IMG/VR virus record: IMGVR_UViG_3300036944_000373 | Span: 1 to 22,190 of that record | DNA: 22,190 bases | Strand: one strand, 5' to 3' | Origin: a virus | In this document: piece after piece, positions 15,616-21,693 of the stretch | Layout of the letters: every line of letters starts with the position of its first letter | How positions within the stretch are numbered: the stretch's first letter is position 1 | Translations under genes and position numbers: made by a program | The notes under the pieces: model-generated | The model's database searches: none | What the model saw: the letters and a program-made list of their open reading frames with translations, nothing else | Told to the model about the DNA's origin: nothing

Positions 15616-17388
15616 TTATCCCCTAGTTGTTACTCGTCCCGTTGCCTTGCCGCTACCGCTAAGGGTAGATAAAATAGTTTGGATATCTGGTGCTGCTGCT
15701 GGAGGTGCCATTCCCATATCTGCGGGAGAGCCTCCTACTGGAGCCGCGCCTGGAGCAGGGGACGGCTGCTCAACAGGAGAAGTTGCCGCCCCAGCAGGAG
15801 GAACTTGTTGCTGAGGAGCAAACACATTAGCAACTGCTTCTTCCAAAGCCTGTCCCTTTTGCCTTGCGCTAATAACTCCTGCAATTTTAGTTACGATAGA
15901 TGATGGGTCTCCACCTGATGTAGCCATTGCTGGAATAGCCTGAGCCATTGCAGTAATACCACTTAGAAGTGATGAACGCATGTTTTCGATTTCAATCTTC
16001 TCAAGTTCTTGAGTAACATTGACAGTGAATGGTAGTTCACGCATTGCCATGTCCTTGGAGATTAGTCCTCCACCAAGAGCCTGTAGCATAAAGATAAGTC
16101 CCTGTGCTGGGTTAAGACCAGCGAGCATACCATAACGGACATCTGCAGAGTAATCACCCTTGATATCCTTAGTTGGCTTGTATGTAATCTCGTAAGGAGA
16201 ACCAGAGTCAACACCACGAATGGTCTTTTCTTCTGCGTAAACCTTCTCATCTACCTCAAAACATAGAGATACTACATCGCGTAGTGCAGATGCAAAGATT
16301 GCCTGTGCTGACTTAACCTGTGTATCAAATGCACCCATGAGTGCTTGTACGCCTTGACCAGTAACGATGCTTGCATCAATGTTACCAGAACGTCCTTCTG
16401 GATAACGAGTACCTGAGCGAAGTTCTTGATTAAGGAGTTGTGCTTCCGTGAACGCGCCTTGTGGAATGTTTAATTCGACACGACGAACGCCCGCTGGGTT
16501 GGCGGTACGGATAACCGCATCGCCACCCAACTGGAGTTCTTGTACGTCTTGTGGTAATACGATTGGTGCCTGAACACTCTTCTCCGCTGCTTCCATTGCC
16601 AATAAAGCGAAACGGTTGCGAAGAAGTTGAATACCTAATACGTCGTCGAATTGTCCACGCATCTCGCCATCAATAGACGGCTTACGCGCCACGACAACCA
16701 TCATCTTGCCCAGCGGGTTGGCTGCGCGAGATAAAACTAGATTACCCTTCTTGGGTAAGTAAATTACTGACTGGTCCTTATCGTAGTAACGAACCATCTC
16801 GACCTGAGCGTGCAGGTCCTGTGTGTATCCGTCACGACCAAGGATTTGAGTCTCATACTCTGGGAACTGTGTTACTAGTTCTCCAAGAGTCATCATGTAG
16901 CGCTTTGCAAATGCCACACAGCGTCCGTAGCGGTCGAATTCTGGGTAAGCCCCGATTGGATTTTCTACGCGAATACGCGGCAACTTGCTTTCTTCGTCCA
17001 ATTCAATCATGAAAGGAACGAAACCATATGTTAGATACCAGTCAGCACCTGAGTACATCTGTACTGATAGGTCAGAGTGTGAGAAGTAGTTAGCAGCAAT
17101 ACGTGTACGCTTATCAGCGAAGTTACGTGCCTTGTCGCTAACGGAGTTAGCAGCAGAGCAGTTAATTGCTGGTAGCGGTGCCATAACCTCTGAAAGGTCA
17201 CGTGCTACTACGTCAATGAAGTTAGCAACTACGTTAGCATCTACACCCTCTGGGAAGAACTCAGGGTAGACCTGTGAAATTTGTCCCTTACGAACTGCAA
17301 GTACGCTTAGATTACGAGCATCTCGTTCATGATTACGGTAGCGCAACGCTTCGACGCGTGCTGCAACCTGTTCCATTGATAATGCCAT
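15616..17388 (-). CDS. portal protein (590 aa)
   Basis: The portal forms the ring at one capsid vertex through which the terminase pumps DNA. The sequence follows the terminase gene, as is usual. It has an N-terminal helical part (MEQVAARVEALRYRNHERDA), a central domain with YSGADWYLTYGFVPFMIELD and ENPIGAYPEFDRYGRCVAFA, the long-helix region near residues 330-390 (TEAQLLNQELRSGTRYPEGR, ALMGAFDTQVKSAQAIFASAL), and a C-terminal helix followed by a Pro/Ala-rich tail (about 535-575: APQQQVPPAGAATSPVEQPS). ATG 17388 with AGGA 5 bases upstream was chosen; an in-frame start at 17427 lies inside the terminase gene and has no RBS. Portal assignment rests on position, length and overall pattern. Confidence 0.85.
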   Translation of the reverse strand: MALSMEQVAARVEALRYRNHERDARNLSVLAVRKGQISQVYPEFFPEGVDANVVANFIDVVARDLSEVMAPLPAINCSAANSVSDKARNFADKRTRIAANYFSHSDLSVQMYSGADWYLTYGFVPFMIELDEESKLPRIRVENPIGAYPEFDRYGRCVAFAKRYMMTLGELVTQFPEYETQILGRDGYTQDLHAQVEMVRYYDKDQSVIYLPKKGNLVLSRAANPLGKMMVVVARKPSIDGEMRGQFDDVLGIQLLRNRFALLAMEAAEKSVQAPIVLPQDVQELQLGGDAVIRTANPAGVRRVELNIPQGAFTEAQLLNQELRSGTRYPEGRSGNIDASIVTGQGVQALMGAFDTQVKSAQAIFASALRDVVSLCFEVDEKVYAEEKTIRGVDSGSPYEITYKPTKDIKGDYSADVRYGMLAGLNPAQGLIFMLQALGGGLISKDMAMRELPFTVNVTQELEKIEIENMRSSLLSGITAMAQAIPAMATSGGDPSSIVTKIAGVISARQKGQALEEAVANVFAPQQQVPPAGAATSPVEQPSPAPGAAPVGGSPADMGMAPPAAAPDIQTILSTLSGSGKATGRVTTRG

Positions 17389-17395
17389 TGGTATC

Positions 17396-19261
17396 CTAAC
17401 CGTATGTTTGCGACCATTGCTCTGCAAAGGCTTCGTCTAAATTTACTGCATGTCGTCTAGATGCTTGTGCCTGGGTTGTCCAGCGGTTCTGCATCCATTT
17501 AGATGCATTACTGCTCTGTTGCATCATCTCGCGGATGCGGATAATAGCAAACCAGAGTGCCATAACGCAGTCTGTTGGGTTCTTAGTATCTGGCTTCCAG
17601 GTAATTAGTTCCTGTACCAAGGTCTTCAGACCTTCAGAACCTTCATTACTTGGTAGTTCGATAATGTTGTTGTCTTGGAATCTACCATCTCTGGTATTTC
17701 CAAATAGCATAGACATAGACGCAACACCAAAAGACGTGTCCCATTTATTCTTGCCAGTAAAGTGAGAGTTGAGTTGGCATCCATAGGATGCAAGATATGC
17801 TCTTAAGTCATCGTCTAAGGCATACGCCTTCTGGTGTGCGTTAATTTCAATACGCAGTTCCTGTGGACGATACTTCTCAACCCATTCCTCAATCAAAGAT
17901 TGAATCTTTGCTGGGCTTGGGTCAGTCATATTCACACAGTCTAGGACGTAGATACGTCCATCTGCTCGGTTGTAAGTACAAACCACCGCTCCTGTAGCAC
18001 CTGCCATAGCAGGGTCAAGACCGATAATGGTATAACCTTCAACATGTTGGGGATGTCCAGGAGTACCTGCTTTTAGAGGTCCTCTTTTTCGCATTCCGTT
18101 GACTGAGCCAGCCACACAGGTTGGAGAGAATATTGAGTCTTCTTGGACATCTTCCTGTTGGTAGACCATAGCCCAAACAGACGGAGCGACCTCAGAGCGA
18201 CGCTTAAAGAGCGAGGGTCCATCCCATTTCGGGTATAAGCCATTTTCCAAAACCTCATCTAAATCGTTTTCCTGTTGGTCCGTCTCAGGCCAAAGAGTCT
18301 TCCAGTTCTTAGGTTTATCATCGAACTGTAAAACTGCTGGCATAGCGCAGTAAGTAAAGGGGCTTTTGCCACCTGTCCATTGTCCACCATCACGAATCAT
18401 CTTGTACAAATCTACAGATGATACGCGAGTACCTACAATAATAAGTTTACCATGTCGTCCCAGACGGGTGATAACTTCCTTCTGCAGCCACTCAATCTGC
18501 TTTTCCCACTCATGGGCGTTAGAACCCATCACCACGTCGTCGAGGATAATCAGGTCGGCGCGAGCACCGTAAATCTGAGACCCGAAGCCTAGGGCTTGAA
18601 CGGTTGGGTCCTTCTCACCAGAATCTCGACCTGTGCCTAGATAAATCATGTCGGCGGACCATTGTGTTGCATCCGCCTTATACCCACCATTAGGGCCGAA
18701 GGCCGTCTGTAGTTTCATGTAGCCAGGGTGGGAAAGACGCGTCTTAATAGCGCCTAGGAACTTGCGAGCCATACCCTGAGTCTTAGACACGATAATCACT
18801 CGCGTGTTAGGGTTGGTCACAATCTTGTAGGTCACGTAGTTAGTCGTGATAGTGGTTGACTTGGCGTGCTCAGGTGGCACGTTAATCAAGACACGGTTAG
18901 GGTCTCCTGGTTCATAAGTCATACCAGGGGGTAGCCATCTAGGTTCTTTACCCTCAATGAGGTCAATCCAGTTCAACTGATGTGGAAAGAGCCTAGAGTC
19001 TAGGAACTGCTCTGAGAACTCATGGAAAGGCATATCCTTAAGTTCTGCTAAATCTTGTTTGATGCCCTTACCCGCAAGGCGGGCTTTATCAGCCTTCTCT
19101 TTGAAGTCGGCATCTGCCATAGACCACTGGCGGAAGGCGGTGTCCTGGCGGTCAACGGCTGCCATAGCAGCGGTGACGGTGGCACCTTGTTCTAGTAGGG
19201 CTAGGACTTTGGCTTGCGCCTCTTCCTTACCATACGTCTGTTTTCCAGCCTTGCGTCCCAT
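17396..19261 (-). CDS. terL: terminase large subunit with N-terminal HTH-like region (621 aa)
   Basis: This is the DNA-packaging motor and nuclease. The ATPase domain shows a Walker A-like INVPPEHAKSTT (about 127-138, Lys134), Walker B LIILDD (237-242) and a coupling motif LIIVGTRVSS (273-282). The RNase H-like nuclease has the acidic triad GLDPA (D416), RIEIN (E472) and PTDCVMAL (D564). The first 65 residues (EAQAKVLALLEQGATVTAAM, then FRQWSMADADFKEKADKARL) resemble the helix-turn-helix of small terminases or transposase-like DNA binders. No separate small-terminase gene is seen upstream. ATG 19261 has AGGA 7 bases before it. It is the first gene of the minus-strand block, driven by a predicted promoter about 130 bases upstream. 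Confidence 0.94.
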   Translation of the reverse strand: MGRKAGKQTYGKEEAQAKVLALLEQGATVTAAMAAVDRQDTAFRQWSMADADFKEKADKARLAGKGIKQDLAELKDMPFHEFSEQFLDSRLFPHQLNWIDLIEGKEPRWLPPGMTYEPGDPNRVLINVPPEHAKSTTITTNYVTYKIVTNPNTRVIIVSKTQGMARKFLGAIKTRLSHPGYMKLQTAFGPNGGYKADATQWSADMIYLGTGRDSGEKDPTVQALGFGSQIYGARADLIILDDVVMGSNAHEWEKQIEWLQKEVITRLGRHGKLIIVGTRVSSVDLYKMIRDGGQWTGGKSPFTYCAMPAVLQFDDKPKNWKTLWPETDQQENDLDEVLENGLYPKWDGPSLFKRRSEVAPSVWAMVYQQEDVQEDSIFSPTCVAGSVNGMRKRGPLKAGTPGHPQHVEGYTIIGLDPAMAGATGAVVCTYNRADGRIYVLDCVNMTDPSPAKIQSLIEEWVEKYRPQELRIEINAHQKAYALDDDLRAYLASYGCQLNSHFTGKNKWDTSFGVASMSMLFGNTRDGRFQDNNIIELPSNEGSEGLKTLVQELITWKPDTKNPTDCVMALWFAIIRIREMMQQSSNASKWMQNRWTTQAQASRRHAVNLDEAFAEQWSQTYG

Positions 19262-19744: not shown

Positions 19745-19860
19745 TAGGCGGGAGATGGTTGAACTTTCAACTACTTATCCGCTACCCATTCGGCTAACCG
19801 AACAGGCTCATGCTCAGGCTCACGCGCCCGCCTAGATTCCCGCCCGCGCCCGCCCGCCTA
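19745..19860. repeat. GC-rich repeats: CCCGCCTA and GGCTCA units
   Basis: CCCGCCTA occurs at 19827-19834 and 19853-19860, and its complement TAGGCGGG at 19745-19752. Between the two direct copies is a run of CGCCCG units. Just before them, three hexamers lie head to tail: GGCTCA, TGCTCA, GGCTCA (19805-19822). The short spacing recalls iterons or protein-binding arrays, although the low complexity of the GC tract makes chance repeats possible. Confidence 0.5.
19788..19803 (+). repeat. palindromic element, copy 1 (ATTCGGCTAACCGAAC)
   Basis: This is the first of six copies. The arms TTCGG and CCGAA flank a CTAA core. It lies 134 bases ahead of copy 2, and both share the flanking bases CC before and AG after. 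No RBS or gene follows it directly; it lies upstream of the tentative promoter for the 203-residue gene. Confidence 0.85.
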
Positions 19861-19861
19861 T

Positions 19862-19916
19862 GGTGTTGCAAAACCTTTTGCCATGGTACGATTCTCTTAC
19901 CAAATCGGGCAACACC
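19862..19916. repeat. nested inverted repeat before copy 2
   Basis: GGTGTTGC (19862-19869) is complementary to GCAACACC (19909-19916), and within the loop TGGTA (19884-19888) is complementary to TACCA (19898-19902). The structure ends 5 bases before palindromic copy 2 and encloses the tentative -10 of the next gene, so it could form a cruciform or a looped operator. Confidence 0.55.
19885..19892 (+). promoter_or_regulatory. tentative extended -10 for the 203-aa gene
   Basis: GGTACGAT contains a TAnnnT -10 (TACGAT, 19887-19892), preceded by TGG in the manner of an extended -10. No good -35 is found; TTGCAA at 19866-19871 would give a 15-base spacer. The distance from this -10 to the palindromic element (about 30 bases) matches that of the clear promoter at 21618-21646, which is the main support. 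Confidence 0.3.
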
Positions 19917-19921
19917 GCCCC

Positions 19922-19937
19922 ATTCGGCTAACCGAAC
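19922..19937 (+). repeat. palindromic element, copy 2 (ATTCGGCTAACCGAAC)
   Basis: This copy sits 18 bases ahead of the chosen start of the 203-residue gene, followed by AGAATGGAAAT. The same AGAATGGAGAT-type sequence follows copy 4, so element and translation signal appear to have been duplicated together. Confidence 0.9.
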
Positions 19938-19955
19938 AGAATGGAAATAACCCAA

Positions 19956-20567
19956 ATGGCAACAGCAAAGAACACAACAAAGGCTCCAAAGAACACCGTA
20001 ACAATTAAGGCTCCAAAGTTGGTAAGCGCTTGGTCTTCAGTATGCTCAACTTCTGCTAAGTCGGAATCCGACATCATTAAAGCGATTGAGAATCTATCCG
20101 CGACAATGGTCTTAGAATCTCGCCTATCAGTGAATGACCAAAAGCGATTCATAAAAGGCTTAGAGGATTCGGGCAAGGTGTCCTCTTTCGTGAAGTCTAG
20201 CCACGCTCCCGCGCTCCCTACATGGTCAAAGTTACGCTCACTTCATGCTGAGTTTCGCGCCCTGCCTATCGCTAAGCAACTATCTACCGCGAGCGCGAGT
20301 TATGACCTACTAGGCGCGGGCAAGGGTGAGCAGATTAAGACCCTAGACGCGCTCCAAAAGGAAATCGCTACCATTCGCAAGGCTAAGAACGACAAGAGCA
20401 ACAAGACCCCAAAGAGCGAGAAGTCTCCAAAGGCTCCAAAAGATACGCTCGCGGAGATTCTCGCCTACTTCACCGCATTGAACTTTGAGGAATTGAGCGA
20501 GAATCAGTTAGACCAAATAGCTGAAATCCATGCGGCTATTGAATCAAAGGTTGGTGCTATGGCATAA
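19956..20567 (+). CDS. Lys-rich early hypothetical protein (203 aa)
   Basis: ATG 19956 was preferred to the in-frame ATG 19941 because TGGAAAT can act as RBS for it, as in the paralogous layout at copy 4, whereas 19941 has no RBS. The protein starts with a basic, Thr/Lys-rich tail (MATAKNTTKAPKNTVTIKAP). A helical core follows (about 36-141), including RLSVNDQKRFIKGLEDSGKV and WSKLRSLHAEFRALPIAKQL. Next is a Lys/Pro linker at 142-163, and the end is an acidic helix pair (TLAEILAYFTALNFEELSEN onward). The pattern suggests a nucleic-acid-associated protein. It is the first plus-strand gene after the divergent region and is followed by a strong terminator, so it forms its own transcription unit. 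No family is recognised. Confidence 0.78.
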   Translation: MATAKNTTKAPKNTVTIKAPKLVSAWSSVCSTSAKSESDIIKAIENLSATMVLESRLSVNDQKRFIKGLEDSGKVSSFVKSSHAPALPTWSKLRSLHAEFRALPIAKQLSTASASYDLLGAGKGEQIKTLDALQKEIATIRKAKNDKSNKTPKSEKSPKAPKDTLAEILAYFTALNFEELSENQLDQIAEIHAAIESKVGAMA

Positions 20568-20581
20568 GCCAAAGAGAATAG

Positions 20582-20613
20582 CCTCGCTCCTTCGGGAGCG
20601 GGGTTATTTTTTT
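20582..20613 (+). terminator. strong intrinsic terminator
   Basis: CCTCGCTCC (20582-20590) pairs with GGAGCGGGG (20595-20603) as a 9-bp stem with one T-G pair. It is closed by a stable TTCG tetraloop and followed by TTATTTTTTT. It begins 14 bases after the stop of the 203-residue gene and should end that transcript. Confidence 0.92.
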
Positions 20614-20708
20614 GCCCAAAAATTGTCCAACACAAACCAACACAAACCGAATAACGACCGACCAATGCCACCGACATACGAGCGACACATGCCACCGAAC
20701 TATGTAGC

Positions 20709-20724
20709 GTTCGGCTAACCGAAC
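20709..20724 (+). repeat. palindromic element, copy 3 (GTTCGGCTAACCGAAC)
   Basis: This is a full 6-bp-arm copy. No gene follows directly; it ends 4 bases before the -35 of the promoter at 20729-20757. Copies 3 and 4 therefore bracket that promoter, as copies 1 and 2 bracket the tentative promoter of the first gene. The stretch before it (20614-20708) has only short direct repeats (AACACAAACC twice, ATGCCACCGA twice). Confidence 0.88.
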
Positions 20725-20728
20725 ACGA

Positions 20729-20757
20729 TAGACAGAAACTTCTTCATGGTGTAGACT
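20729..20757 (+). promoter_or_regulatory. sigma70-like promoter (TAGACA-17-TAGACT)
   Basis: -35 TAGACA (20729-20734), 17-bp spacer, -10 TAGACT (20752-20757). The spacer shares CTTCTT, at the same distance from the -10, with the promoter at 20962-20990, which suggests a common origin. RNA would start near 20764, giving a leader of about 70 bases that contains copy 4 and the RBS of the 43-residue gene. Confidence 0.65.
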
Positions 20758-20802
20758 AATGTCTATCAGCGAGGCTCCTGCCTTGTTGCTAACCTATAAC
20801 TC

Positions 20803-20818
20803 GTTCGGCTAACCGAAC
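20803..20818 (+). repeat. palindromic element, copy 4 (GTTCGGCTAACCGAAC)
   Basis: This copy lies 15 bases before the ATG of the 43-residue gene, ending 5 bases before its GGAG site. In the mRNA, the 6-bp stem with a CUAA loop would stand next to the ribosome-binding site. Confidence 0.9.
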
Positions 20819-20833
20819 AGAATGGAGATGGAC

Positions 20834-20965
20834 ATGATTGACCTAGACCTAAGCGCACACCTTGAAGTTCAGACCAACATTCTGAATGAGAAGCGTGCAG
20901 AGCGTGAGCGTTATGAGCGTGGCGTTCAAGCCATGCGTGAAGCGAGCAACATTGAACAGGCTTGA
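20834..20965 (+). CDS. small charged helical protein (43 aa)
   Basis: ATG 20834 has GGAG 6 bases upstream; two other in-frame ATGs (20822, 20828) overlap that site and are less likely. The peptide is a single charged helix in appearance (LEVQTNILNEKRAERERYER, then GVQAMREASNIEQA). The gene stands alone between a promoter with palindromic copy 4 and the next promoter, whose -35 (TTGACC) overlaps its stop codon. Signals on both sides support translation. No family is recognised; a small host-takeover or regulatory peptide is possible. Confidence 0.72.
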   Translation: MIDLDLSAHLEVQTNILNEKRAERERYERGVQAMREASNIEQA

Positions 20966-20990
20966 CCCATACTTCTTTTGATGTTAGACT
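20962..20990 (+). promoter_or_regulatory. sigma70-like promoter (TTGACC-17-TAGACT)
   Basis: -35 TTGACC (20962-20967), 17-bp spacer, -10 TAGACT (20985-20990), preceded by TGT as in an extended -10. It starts inside the stop of the 43-residue gene. RNA would begin near 20997 and carry a leader of about 150 bases, including several hairpins and palindromic copy 5, before the 47-residue gene. Confidence 0.75.
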
Positions 20991-21006
20991 AAAGACCTTA
21001 GCGGAT

Positions 21007-21107
21007 AGCCTACCCTGAATTTGGGCAGGTGTTAGGCTGGTGGCTCATGATAGGCAGTTACGCAAGTGCGAGTCTTGCGGTGAGCGCGTGATAACAAAGC
21101 GTTATCA
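21007..21107 (+). other. structured leader with three stem-loops
   Basis: Three inverted repeats lie between the promoter and palindromic copy 5. AGCCTA (21007-21012) with TAGGCT (21033-21038) encloses CCTG/CAGG (21014-21017, 21026-21029). CGCAAG (21061-21066) pairs with CTTGCG (21074-21079). TGATAAC (21089-21095) pairs with GTTATCA (21101-21107). With copy 5 this gives four stems in a 120-base 5' leader, unusually structured for a short early mRNA. A short frame with a CxxC motif crosses the same region. Confidence 0.5.
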
Positions 21108-21120
21108 TCTGTTCGGCTAA
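21040..21120 (+). CDS. possible CxxC micro-protein (26 aa)
   Basis: A frame from GTG 21040 to the TAA inside palindromic copy 5 encodes a basic peptide with KCESCGERV at residues 9-17 and ending in KRYHLFG. The CxxC plus nearby His and Arg/Lys resembles a half zinc ribbon. An AGG lies 10 bases before the GTG, and the frame falls within the predicted transcript from 20997. Against it are the GTG start, a weak RBS, the small size and the overlap with three hairpins. The peptide may be real, or the pattern may be chance in a structured RNA. Confidence 0.3.
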   Translation: MAHDRQLRKCESCGERVITKRYHLFG

Positions 21121-21126
21121 CCGAAC
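21111..21126 (+). repeat. palindromic element, copy 5 (GTTCGGCTAACCGAAC)
   Basis: This copy ends 8 bases before the AAGGAG site of the 47-residue gene. The intervening sequence (GGCATGTA) differs from that at copies 2 and 4, so the element itself is conserved beyond its flanks. Confidence 0.9.
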
Positions 21127-21146
21127 GGCATGTAAAGGAGTAAGTA

Positions 21147-21290
21147 ATGTACCTACAAACAAGTGATGTGTTCGCAGTAACACTCGCACTATTCGCAGTT
21201 AATGTTGTTCTAGTCTTAGCGTTCCGCAGAATCTATGTGCTAGAGAAGCAGACGACTAAACTTCGTCGCCAACTAAGAGAGGCTAAGTAA
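21147..21290 (+). CDS. small single-pass membrane protein (47 aa)
   Basis: ATG 21147 follows AAGGAG with a 6-base spacer. Residues 8-26 (VFAVTLALFAVNVVLVLAF) form one hydrophobic membrane segment. It is followed by a positively charged helix (RRIYVLEKQTTKLRRQLREAK), which should stay in the cytoplasm (N-out, C-in by the positive-inside rule). The stop directly abuts the next ATG, starting a three-gene run with coupled translation. Small membrane proteins in early phage regions can act in superinfection exclusion, host membrane change or lysis control; none of these can be chosen from the sequence. Confidence 0.78.
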   Translation: MYLQTSDVFAVTLALFAVNVVLVLAFRRIYVLEKQTTKLRRQLREAK

Positions 21291-21476
21291 ATGTACCCAA
21301 CCGCAGATGAACTGGTGGCGGAAGTTTCCGACACAAACACTCTCTGGGAGTCGCGCCTTGACTACCAACTTGTCCAAGAAATCCTCGGGCATGACCTATC
21401 GGTCAGCGAATGGGAATCTCTCATTGACCAATTAGATGACGCGGTATTCGAGACTGTCATGAGTTATCAGAGATGA
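21291..21476 (+). CDS. small acidic hypothetical protein (61 aa)
   Basis: The start is immediately after the previous stop (TAAATG), with AGAGAGG 8 bases upstream inside the preceding gene. The protein is acidic and helical (TADELVAEVSDTNTLWESRL, then DYQLVQEILGHDLSVSEWES), with no membrane segment or cysteine. The last codons overlap the next start by 4 bases (ATGA). It is part of the operon from the promoter at 20962. No family is recognised. Confidence 0.75.
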   Translation: MYPTADELVAEVSDTNTLWESRLDYQLVQEILGHDLSVSEWESLIDQLDDAVFETVMSYQR

Positions 21477-21643
21477 TTACTGTCGAGTTTACTGATGCAC
21501 AGGCTAGTCTTGTGAGGCAGGCACTTCGGGCTGAGCATGACCGCATGGTCAAGCAAGGCTACGCTGGGCTGGCAAAAGTAGTTGAAGAGGCTAGAGATGT
21601 GTTAGCCAATGCCGTAATTGACAAGAACTTAGTTAAGGGTTAG
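21473..21643 (+). CDS. small helical hypothetical protein (56 aa)
   Basis: ATG 21473 overlaps the upstream stop (ATGA), so translation is coupled. The peptide reads as one or two helices: FTDAQASLVRQALRAEHDRM, then GLAKVVEEARDVLANAVIDK. The last 25 bases contain the -35 and the -10 start of the next promoter, so the gene 3' end doubles as a promoter. No family is recognised. Confidence 0.72.
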   Translation: MITVEFTDAQASLVRQALRAEHDRMVKQGYAGLAKVVEEARDVLANAVIDKNLVKG

Positions 21644-21646
21644 AAT
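21618..21646 (+). promoter_or_regulatory. near-consensus sigma70 promoter (TTGACA-17-TAGAAT)
   Basis: -35 TTGACA (21618-21623) is a perfect consensus, with a 17-bp spacer and -10 TAGAAT (21641-21646). RNA would start near 21653, about 25 bases before palindromic copy 6 and 56 before the amidoligase-like gene. It is the strongest-looking promoter in the window. Confidence 0.85.
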
Positions 21647-21677
21647 AGTGCTATTGCAAATCGCAATGGTTTCGACT

Positions 21678-21693
21678 GTTCGGTTAAACGAAC
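21678..21693 (+). repeat. palindromic element, copy 6, variant (GTTCGGTTAAACGAAC)
   Basis: This is the most diverged copy. The core is GTTAAA instead of GCTAAC, leaving 5-bp GTTCG/CGAAC arms. It lies 15 bases before the ATG of the amidoligase-like gene, the same distance as copy 4. Confidence 0.82.

Follow-up and report, generated by a model that had tools for sequence, protein, structure and literature searches.

The DNA considered here is a 22,190-base window, positions 1 to 22,190 of the viral record IMGVR_UViG_3300036944_000373, in which late genes on the minus strand and the terminase gene (17396-19261) are followed by early genes on the plus strand. The early region carries six copies of a short palindrome, here called S1 to S6, and an open reading frame, gene 1, listed at 19941-20567 (208 amino acids), whose probable start is the ATG at 19956, as this codon is kept in relatives. 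Relatives of the terminase include two isolated phages of 'Ca. Planktophila', a freshwater actinobacterium, at 82% identity (isolates: PMC10202952). The 'Ca. Nanopelagicales' are among the most abundant freshwater bacteria and the first isolates of their phages are found among the relatives of these contigs (PMC10202952). A literature search found no paper on early gene control in these phages and none on the palindromes.

Five of the six copies match TTCGGCTAACCGAA exactly and read CTAA on the plus strand, and the sixth is a variant, TTCGGTTAAACGAA, with two mismatches. The set spans 19789-21692 (Table 1). When up to three mismatches were allowed, 13 matches were observed against a mean of 1.2 in 100 dinucleotide shuffles, in keeping with the repeated early motif proposed by a first-pass annotation made from the sequence alone, and the late block holds no copy except one three-mismatch match at 16506, again as that annotation had it. 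The longer 16-mer it gave, GTTCGGCTAACCGAAC, is exact at copies 3-5, but copies 1 and 2 have a preceding A and not G. Copies 2, 4, 5 and 6 do lie close upstream of genes, ending 16-21 nucleotides (nt) before the start codons that are kept in relatives; these distances, like the complementary core-pair counts given below, are hand counts from computed tables. As for the promoters claimed to precede three copies, promoter-like sequences are indeed found upstream of copies 4, 5 and 6, with S5 and S6 standing 121 and 32 nt downstream of theirs, and the one between S3 and S4 is kept in position in relatives, but the number of such sequences in the window does not exceed the shuffled mean. A near-identical 40-kb contig (L097/G001) has the same six sites and flanks as the window and three more sites past the window end.

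Table 1. Features of the early region, in positions of the window.
Feature	Position	Strand	Remarks
Putative operator copy S1, TTCGGCTAACCGAA	19789..19802	+	Upstream of gene-1 promoter region; exact match; position kept in relatives
Putative operator copy S2, TTCGGCTAACCGAA	19923..19936	+	In gene 1 leader; exact match
Gene 1, proposed cognate DNA-binding regulator	19956..20567	+	Covariation with palindrome type; all-helical model; no family match
Intrinsic terminator downstream of gene 1	20590..20612	+	Stem 20590-20603 and T-run
Putative operator copy S3, TTCGGCTAACCGAA	20710..20723	+	Between gene-1 terminator and next promoter; exact match
Promoter TAGACA-17-TAGACT	20729..20757	+	S3 and S4 on either side; TTGACA-17-TATACT in relatives
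Putative operator copy S4, TTCGGCTAACCGAA	20804..20817	+	Exact match; 46 nt past the -10, 16 nt ahead of the 47-amino-acid gene start
Small early gene, 47 amino acids	20834..20965	+	Listed open reading frame 20822-20965; second-best correlate of palindrome type
Promoter-like TTGACC-17-TAGACT	20962..20990	+	Upstream of S5
Putative operator copy S5, TTCGGCTAACCGAA	21112..21125	+	21 nt ahead of start 21147; exact match
Promoter-like TTGACA-17-TAGAAT	21618..21646	+	Upstream of S6
Putative operator copy S6, variant TTCGGTTAAACGAA	21679..21692	+	16 nt ahead of start 21709; two mismatches

To compare relatives, contigs carrying related terminases were flipped to the window orientation and repeated palindromes were sought without a presupposed sequence. 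Other dispersed palindromes, for example TCCGTTTAAACGGA, GTTCGTGTACACGAAC and ACTATATAATATAGT, were found at the same positions, giving ten types in total (at least nine besides that of the window) as set by eye from the computed repeats. The symmetrised consensus is GTTCGGtTAaCCGAAC for type A, that of this window, TGTCGGGcTAgCCCGACA for B1, TGTCGGGATATCCCGACA for B2, TCCGTTTAAACGGA for C, GGTCGGCtaGCCGACC for D, GTCGGCTAGCCGAC for D2, ACTATATaATATAGT for E, TGCCGTATaATACGGCA for F, TGTTCGTgTAcACGAACA for G and CACTTTATaATAAAGTG for H. Each of eleven contigs of 34-41 kb holds 6-9 exact copies of its own type, all at distances from the terminase motif that range from 0.8 to 6.7 kb, and of the remaining types tested (A, B1, C and D) the only exact copy in these eleven is one D-type site in G011; several near-complete genomes were covered to base 40,000, which leaves out up to about 2 kb beyond. 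G011 (L199/L200 with L145) has a D2-like GTCGGCTGGCCGAC at S1, 912 bases from the terminase motif, and type-A sites elsewhere; its gene 1 is truncated where the contig stops, and it is either a real hybrid or an assembly chimera. In most type-A relatives the S6 position is likewise taken by this variant with one broken arm, as though selection had kept a weaker site there. No palindromes or gene-1 homologue were found in five terminase relatives (L095 and L096, which are isolates E7 and F5, and L164, L171 and L172), whose early region is presumably under some other control. A second inverted repeat, GTGATAACAAAGCGTTATCAT, lies at 21088-21108 of the window, immediately upstream of S5, and has the same placement in several relatives.

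Nearly all loci that bear the palindromes have a gene-1 homologue in the same place, and it is this gene that tracks palindrome type. When pairs of the same type and of different type were compared over 37 loci, the identity of gene 1 separated them with an area under the curve (AUC) of 0.99, against 0.66 for terminase, 0.60 for the gene of 417 amino acids, 0.66 for that of 278, 0.70 for that of 61, 0.64 for whiB, 0.51 for the 72-amino-acid gene, 0.67 for that of 141, 0.77 for that of 130 and 0.70 for sigma. Over the 14 loci in which all genes are present the AUC was 0.98 for gene 1, 0.85 for the 47-amino-acid gene adjoining it and 0.63-0.77 for the others. On the gene-1 tree the ten types require nine changes, which is the minimum, as against 18 on the terminase tree, and in a 20-locus set seven changes (again the minimum) are needed on gene 1 and 9-10 on three other genes. 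The uncoupling from genome background is seen in single pairs: G007, of type D, is 74% like the window-like G001 in the 417-amino-acid gene and 87% in the 278-amino-acid gene but only 29% in gene 1, whereas G001 and the type-A G004 are 55%, 71% and 65% alike in the same three. The association with type is strongest for gene-1 residues 31-125, and a profile comparison (E 8e-12) joins the divergent forms of gene 1 (types E, F, H and others) to those of types A-D in one family. A later gene-1 search gave 15 loci outside the fitted set, and in all 14 that had enough flank to be testable the palindrome was predicted by the nearest gene-1 neighbour, although two pairs are possibly near-duplicates and some type-A contigs had previously been seen with the motif; five of the 14 were of type B1 and were predicted at 42-67% gene-1 identity. 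Linkage was considered as the source of the correlation and was rejected, as the sites cover 5 kb and the intervening genes do not follow type. Given that the palindrome types change in step with gene 1, the switch protein that binds to these palindromes is very probably the product of gene 1.

The relatives also bear on the nature of the sites. All six window copies have the same orientation, as first reported, but this does not hold across the family: within class A the core is CTAA in 33 sites and TTAG in 20, and symmetric in others (TTAA 31, CTAG 5). It had been set down in advance that symmetric cores in relatives and both orientations would count against an RNA hairpin, and both were found. 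The core is TTAA in 39 of 40 class C sites and ATAT in all ten of B2, and among 201 even-centred sites the innermost core pair is complementary in 171 and the next pair in 137. This self-complementarity argues against an RNA hairpin, since a tetraloop has no need of it. Two conserved sites lie inside coding sequences. One is at codons 20-25 of the 130-amino-acid gene in all 12 type A-D genomes (at codons 40-45 in L119, where the listed open reading frame begins further upstream), and the peptide it encodes varies with palindrome type (for example RSVSRT, RSANRM, HPFKRT, RRASPT or RSASRP). The other occupies the last codons of the 417-amino-acid gene in 20 of 24 loci examined, crosses the stop codon in three and is absent from one, and here too the peptide shifts with type.

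The structure model of gene 1 is all-helical (predicted local distance difference test score, pLDDT, 85). Neither the full model nor its N-terminal domain had a match at E<=0.001 in the PDB or among viral models, the best VIA Z being 5.6 over 64 residues for the former and 2.3 for the latter, so that no fold can be named, and no match at a meaningful level was obtained in Pfam, NCBIfam or PHROG. Given that there is neither a fold nor a family match, the case for DNA binding by gene 1 comes wholly from the covariation. Searches with two versions of gene 1 (tblastn) gave no match at E<=0.1 in 50,697 phage records, and a scan of 84,980 genomes of bacteria and archaea (GTDB) confirmed no relative. 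Rfam gave no significant match. The integrase families PF00589 and PF00239 had no match in 12 near-complete contigs, parABS not being among the functions searched. Given the lack of an integrase and of a confirmed bacterial relative of gene 1, a role in lysogeny is not indicated, and early shut-off or superinfection control is more likely. Perfect or near-perfect LexA-type boxes, TCGAACAGATGTTCGA, lie upstream of gene 1, close to its start, in seven relatives (L150, L159, L161, L162, L163, L169 and L170), 376-783 bases past the terminase start and in three copies in L170; none was found in the window. These boxes suggest that in some members of the family the regulator gene is under the SOS response of the host.

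It is suggested, with a probability of about 0.8, that the gene-1 product binds all six elements as a dimer and that they are the DNA operators of a single regulon, most likely serving early shut-off. The first-pass view of one motif governing one set of early transcription units is retained here, with sites downstream of promoters and just ahead of starts. Sequence comparison establishes that the sites exist, where they lie, that they have dyad symmetry and that they covary with gene 1; what we infer is that the protein binds them directly, that it forms a dimer, that it represses and does not activate, and any part in superinfection. The gene-1 product is most likely a dimeric regulator of its own gene and of other early genes. 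Expressed early from its own promoter, it would bind the 6-9 sites, which lie upstream of early promoters, in early mRNA leaders, and at the ends of early genes or just within them. It would regulate itself through S1 and S2, most likely negatively, and would shut off early transcription by occluding promoters and by halting polymerase during elongation. It could also keep out a superinfecting phage of the same palindrome type. Such a spread of positions, ahead of promoters, within leaders, at the ends of genes and in their interior, suits a regulator able to impede initiation as well as elongation. In relatives S4 usually stands 43-49 nt past the -10 of the promoter between S3 and S4 (35-38 nt in types E and H, 110 in one type-F locus). 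Helical phasing of S3 and S4 was tried and set aside, as the spacings of 92-98 and 104-115 (one of 167) do not clearly fall on multiples of a helical turn.

Several points weigh against this reading. All compared sequences are metagenomic contigs, the type of three loci (L105, L134 and L162) rests on one or two sites each, and the gene-1 model resembles none of the known DNA-binding folds and has no hidden Markov model family match. Furthermore, many sites lie within transcripts 16-21 nt ahead of starts, as would be expected for an RNA role too, and the first-pass annotation had judged at least as likely as an operator a hairpin beside the ribosome-binding site, acting as the target of a phage protein or as a processing or stability signal. 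Several sites do stand in leaders, 10-21 nt ahead of starts, and most types can fold as RNA (-3.6 to -9.5 kcal/mol). However, type E (ACUAUAUAAUAUAGU) is scarcely stable at only -1.6 kcal/mol, and the symmetric cores and mixed orientation of relatives, the sites within coding sequences and the placement of S3 between a terminator and the next promoter are not what a hairpin would call for; this explanation is consequently considered improbable. The AUC of 0.90 over the 37 loci for the 47-amino-acid gene, second only to gene 1, likewise weighs against the proposal and raises the possibility that its product, alone or with gene 1, is the cognate protein. This is considered very improbable: the product is a very small one, linkage to gene 1 would be expected to give such a correlation, and its identity reaches 86% in pairs of different type and falls to 37% in pairs of the same type.

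The alternative that deserves most weight accepts the sites as operators and has gene 1 activate or anti-silence the early genes instead of repressing them. S3 lies immediately upstream of the -35 of a conserved promoter, where an activator could be placed, and near-complete genomes in which no integrase is found have no obvious need of a lysogeny repressor. Nevertheless, S2, S4, S5 and S6 come after promoters and S7-S9 stand within genes or at their ends, an arrangement that blocking explains better, and activation is considered unlikely. That the copies bind a host factor such as LexA, or are a repeat arisen by chance, has next to no probability. Actinobacterial LexA-type boxes are present nearby in some relatives, but the arms GTTC...GAAC of the palindrome are the reverse of the LexA box GAAC...GTTC, and phages whose terminases are nearly identical differ in palindrome type, which goes with a gene of the phage; the excess over shuffled sequence speaks against chance.

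Taken further, the proposal of a gene-1 regulator leads to a broader and more tentative one, which is given somewhat less than even odds: gene 1 may represent a new family of DNA-binding regulators, of no recognised fold, that controls early genes in integrase-less phages and has taken on at least ten specificities, all 6-9 sites being converted together and repeatedly so. If this is true, specificity would have been switched on near-constant genome backgrounds, sites inside genes included, and could serve as incompatibility or superinfection exclusion among strictly lytic phages. The family offers a natural experiment in the co-evolution of regulator and operator: closely related genomes carry at least ten types of site, each alongside the sequence of its putative cognate protein. 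It can be asked directly here how a regulator alters its specificity when numerous sites have to follow, two of which are under protein-coding constraint. The palindrome type also provides a simple DNA signature by which to group these phages by probable cross-regulation.

Among known systems, the phiC31 repressor has three isoforms, and its sites are conserved inverted repeats, intergenic and partly tied to autoregulation of the repressor. This repressor of a Streptomyces actinophage has many binding sites spread over the genome (PMC4557955). The likeness would be that of an actinophage with many dispersed sites for one repressor, if gene 1 binds them as proposed; the differences are that the present phages have 6-9 sites, in the early region only and some inside genes, an unrelated-looking gene 1, no integrase seen and at least ten specificities in one phage group. 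The stoperators of L5 and other Cluster A mycobacteriophages are 13-bp asymmetric sites, predominantly in one orientation and 20-30 per genome, which are dispersed, many of them away from promoters; repressor and stoperator motif diverge together, and this divergence correlates with whole-genome distance (PMC6550527). Dispersed sites, many off promoters, and the joint divergence of regulator and site motif are shared with the present system, and the placement of its sites is compatible with an L5-like block of elongation. In contrast, the sites here are palindromes of mixed core orientation, number 6-9 in the early region rather than 20-30 genome-wide, and have a type uncoupled from terminase relatedness. 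On homology to L5 Rep the comparison covered the families of Pfam, NCBIfam and PHROG, among which gene 1 has no meaningful match. In Cluster K mycobacteriophages the start-associated sequence (SAS) is 13 bp long and asymmetric, and its extended form (ESAS) consists of two 17-bp repeats separated by a variable spacer; they stand where translation of certain genes begins, and some have inverted repeats (PMC3203893). The present sites resemble them in lying near starts and differ in being a single compact palindrome with a fixed centre. The LexA/SOS box, GAAC N4 GTTC, is not matched, as the arms here are GTTC...GAAC. By analogy, the mode of control appears to be like that of the dispersed-operator systems of phiC31 or L5, with membership in neither established.

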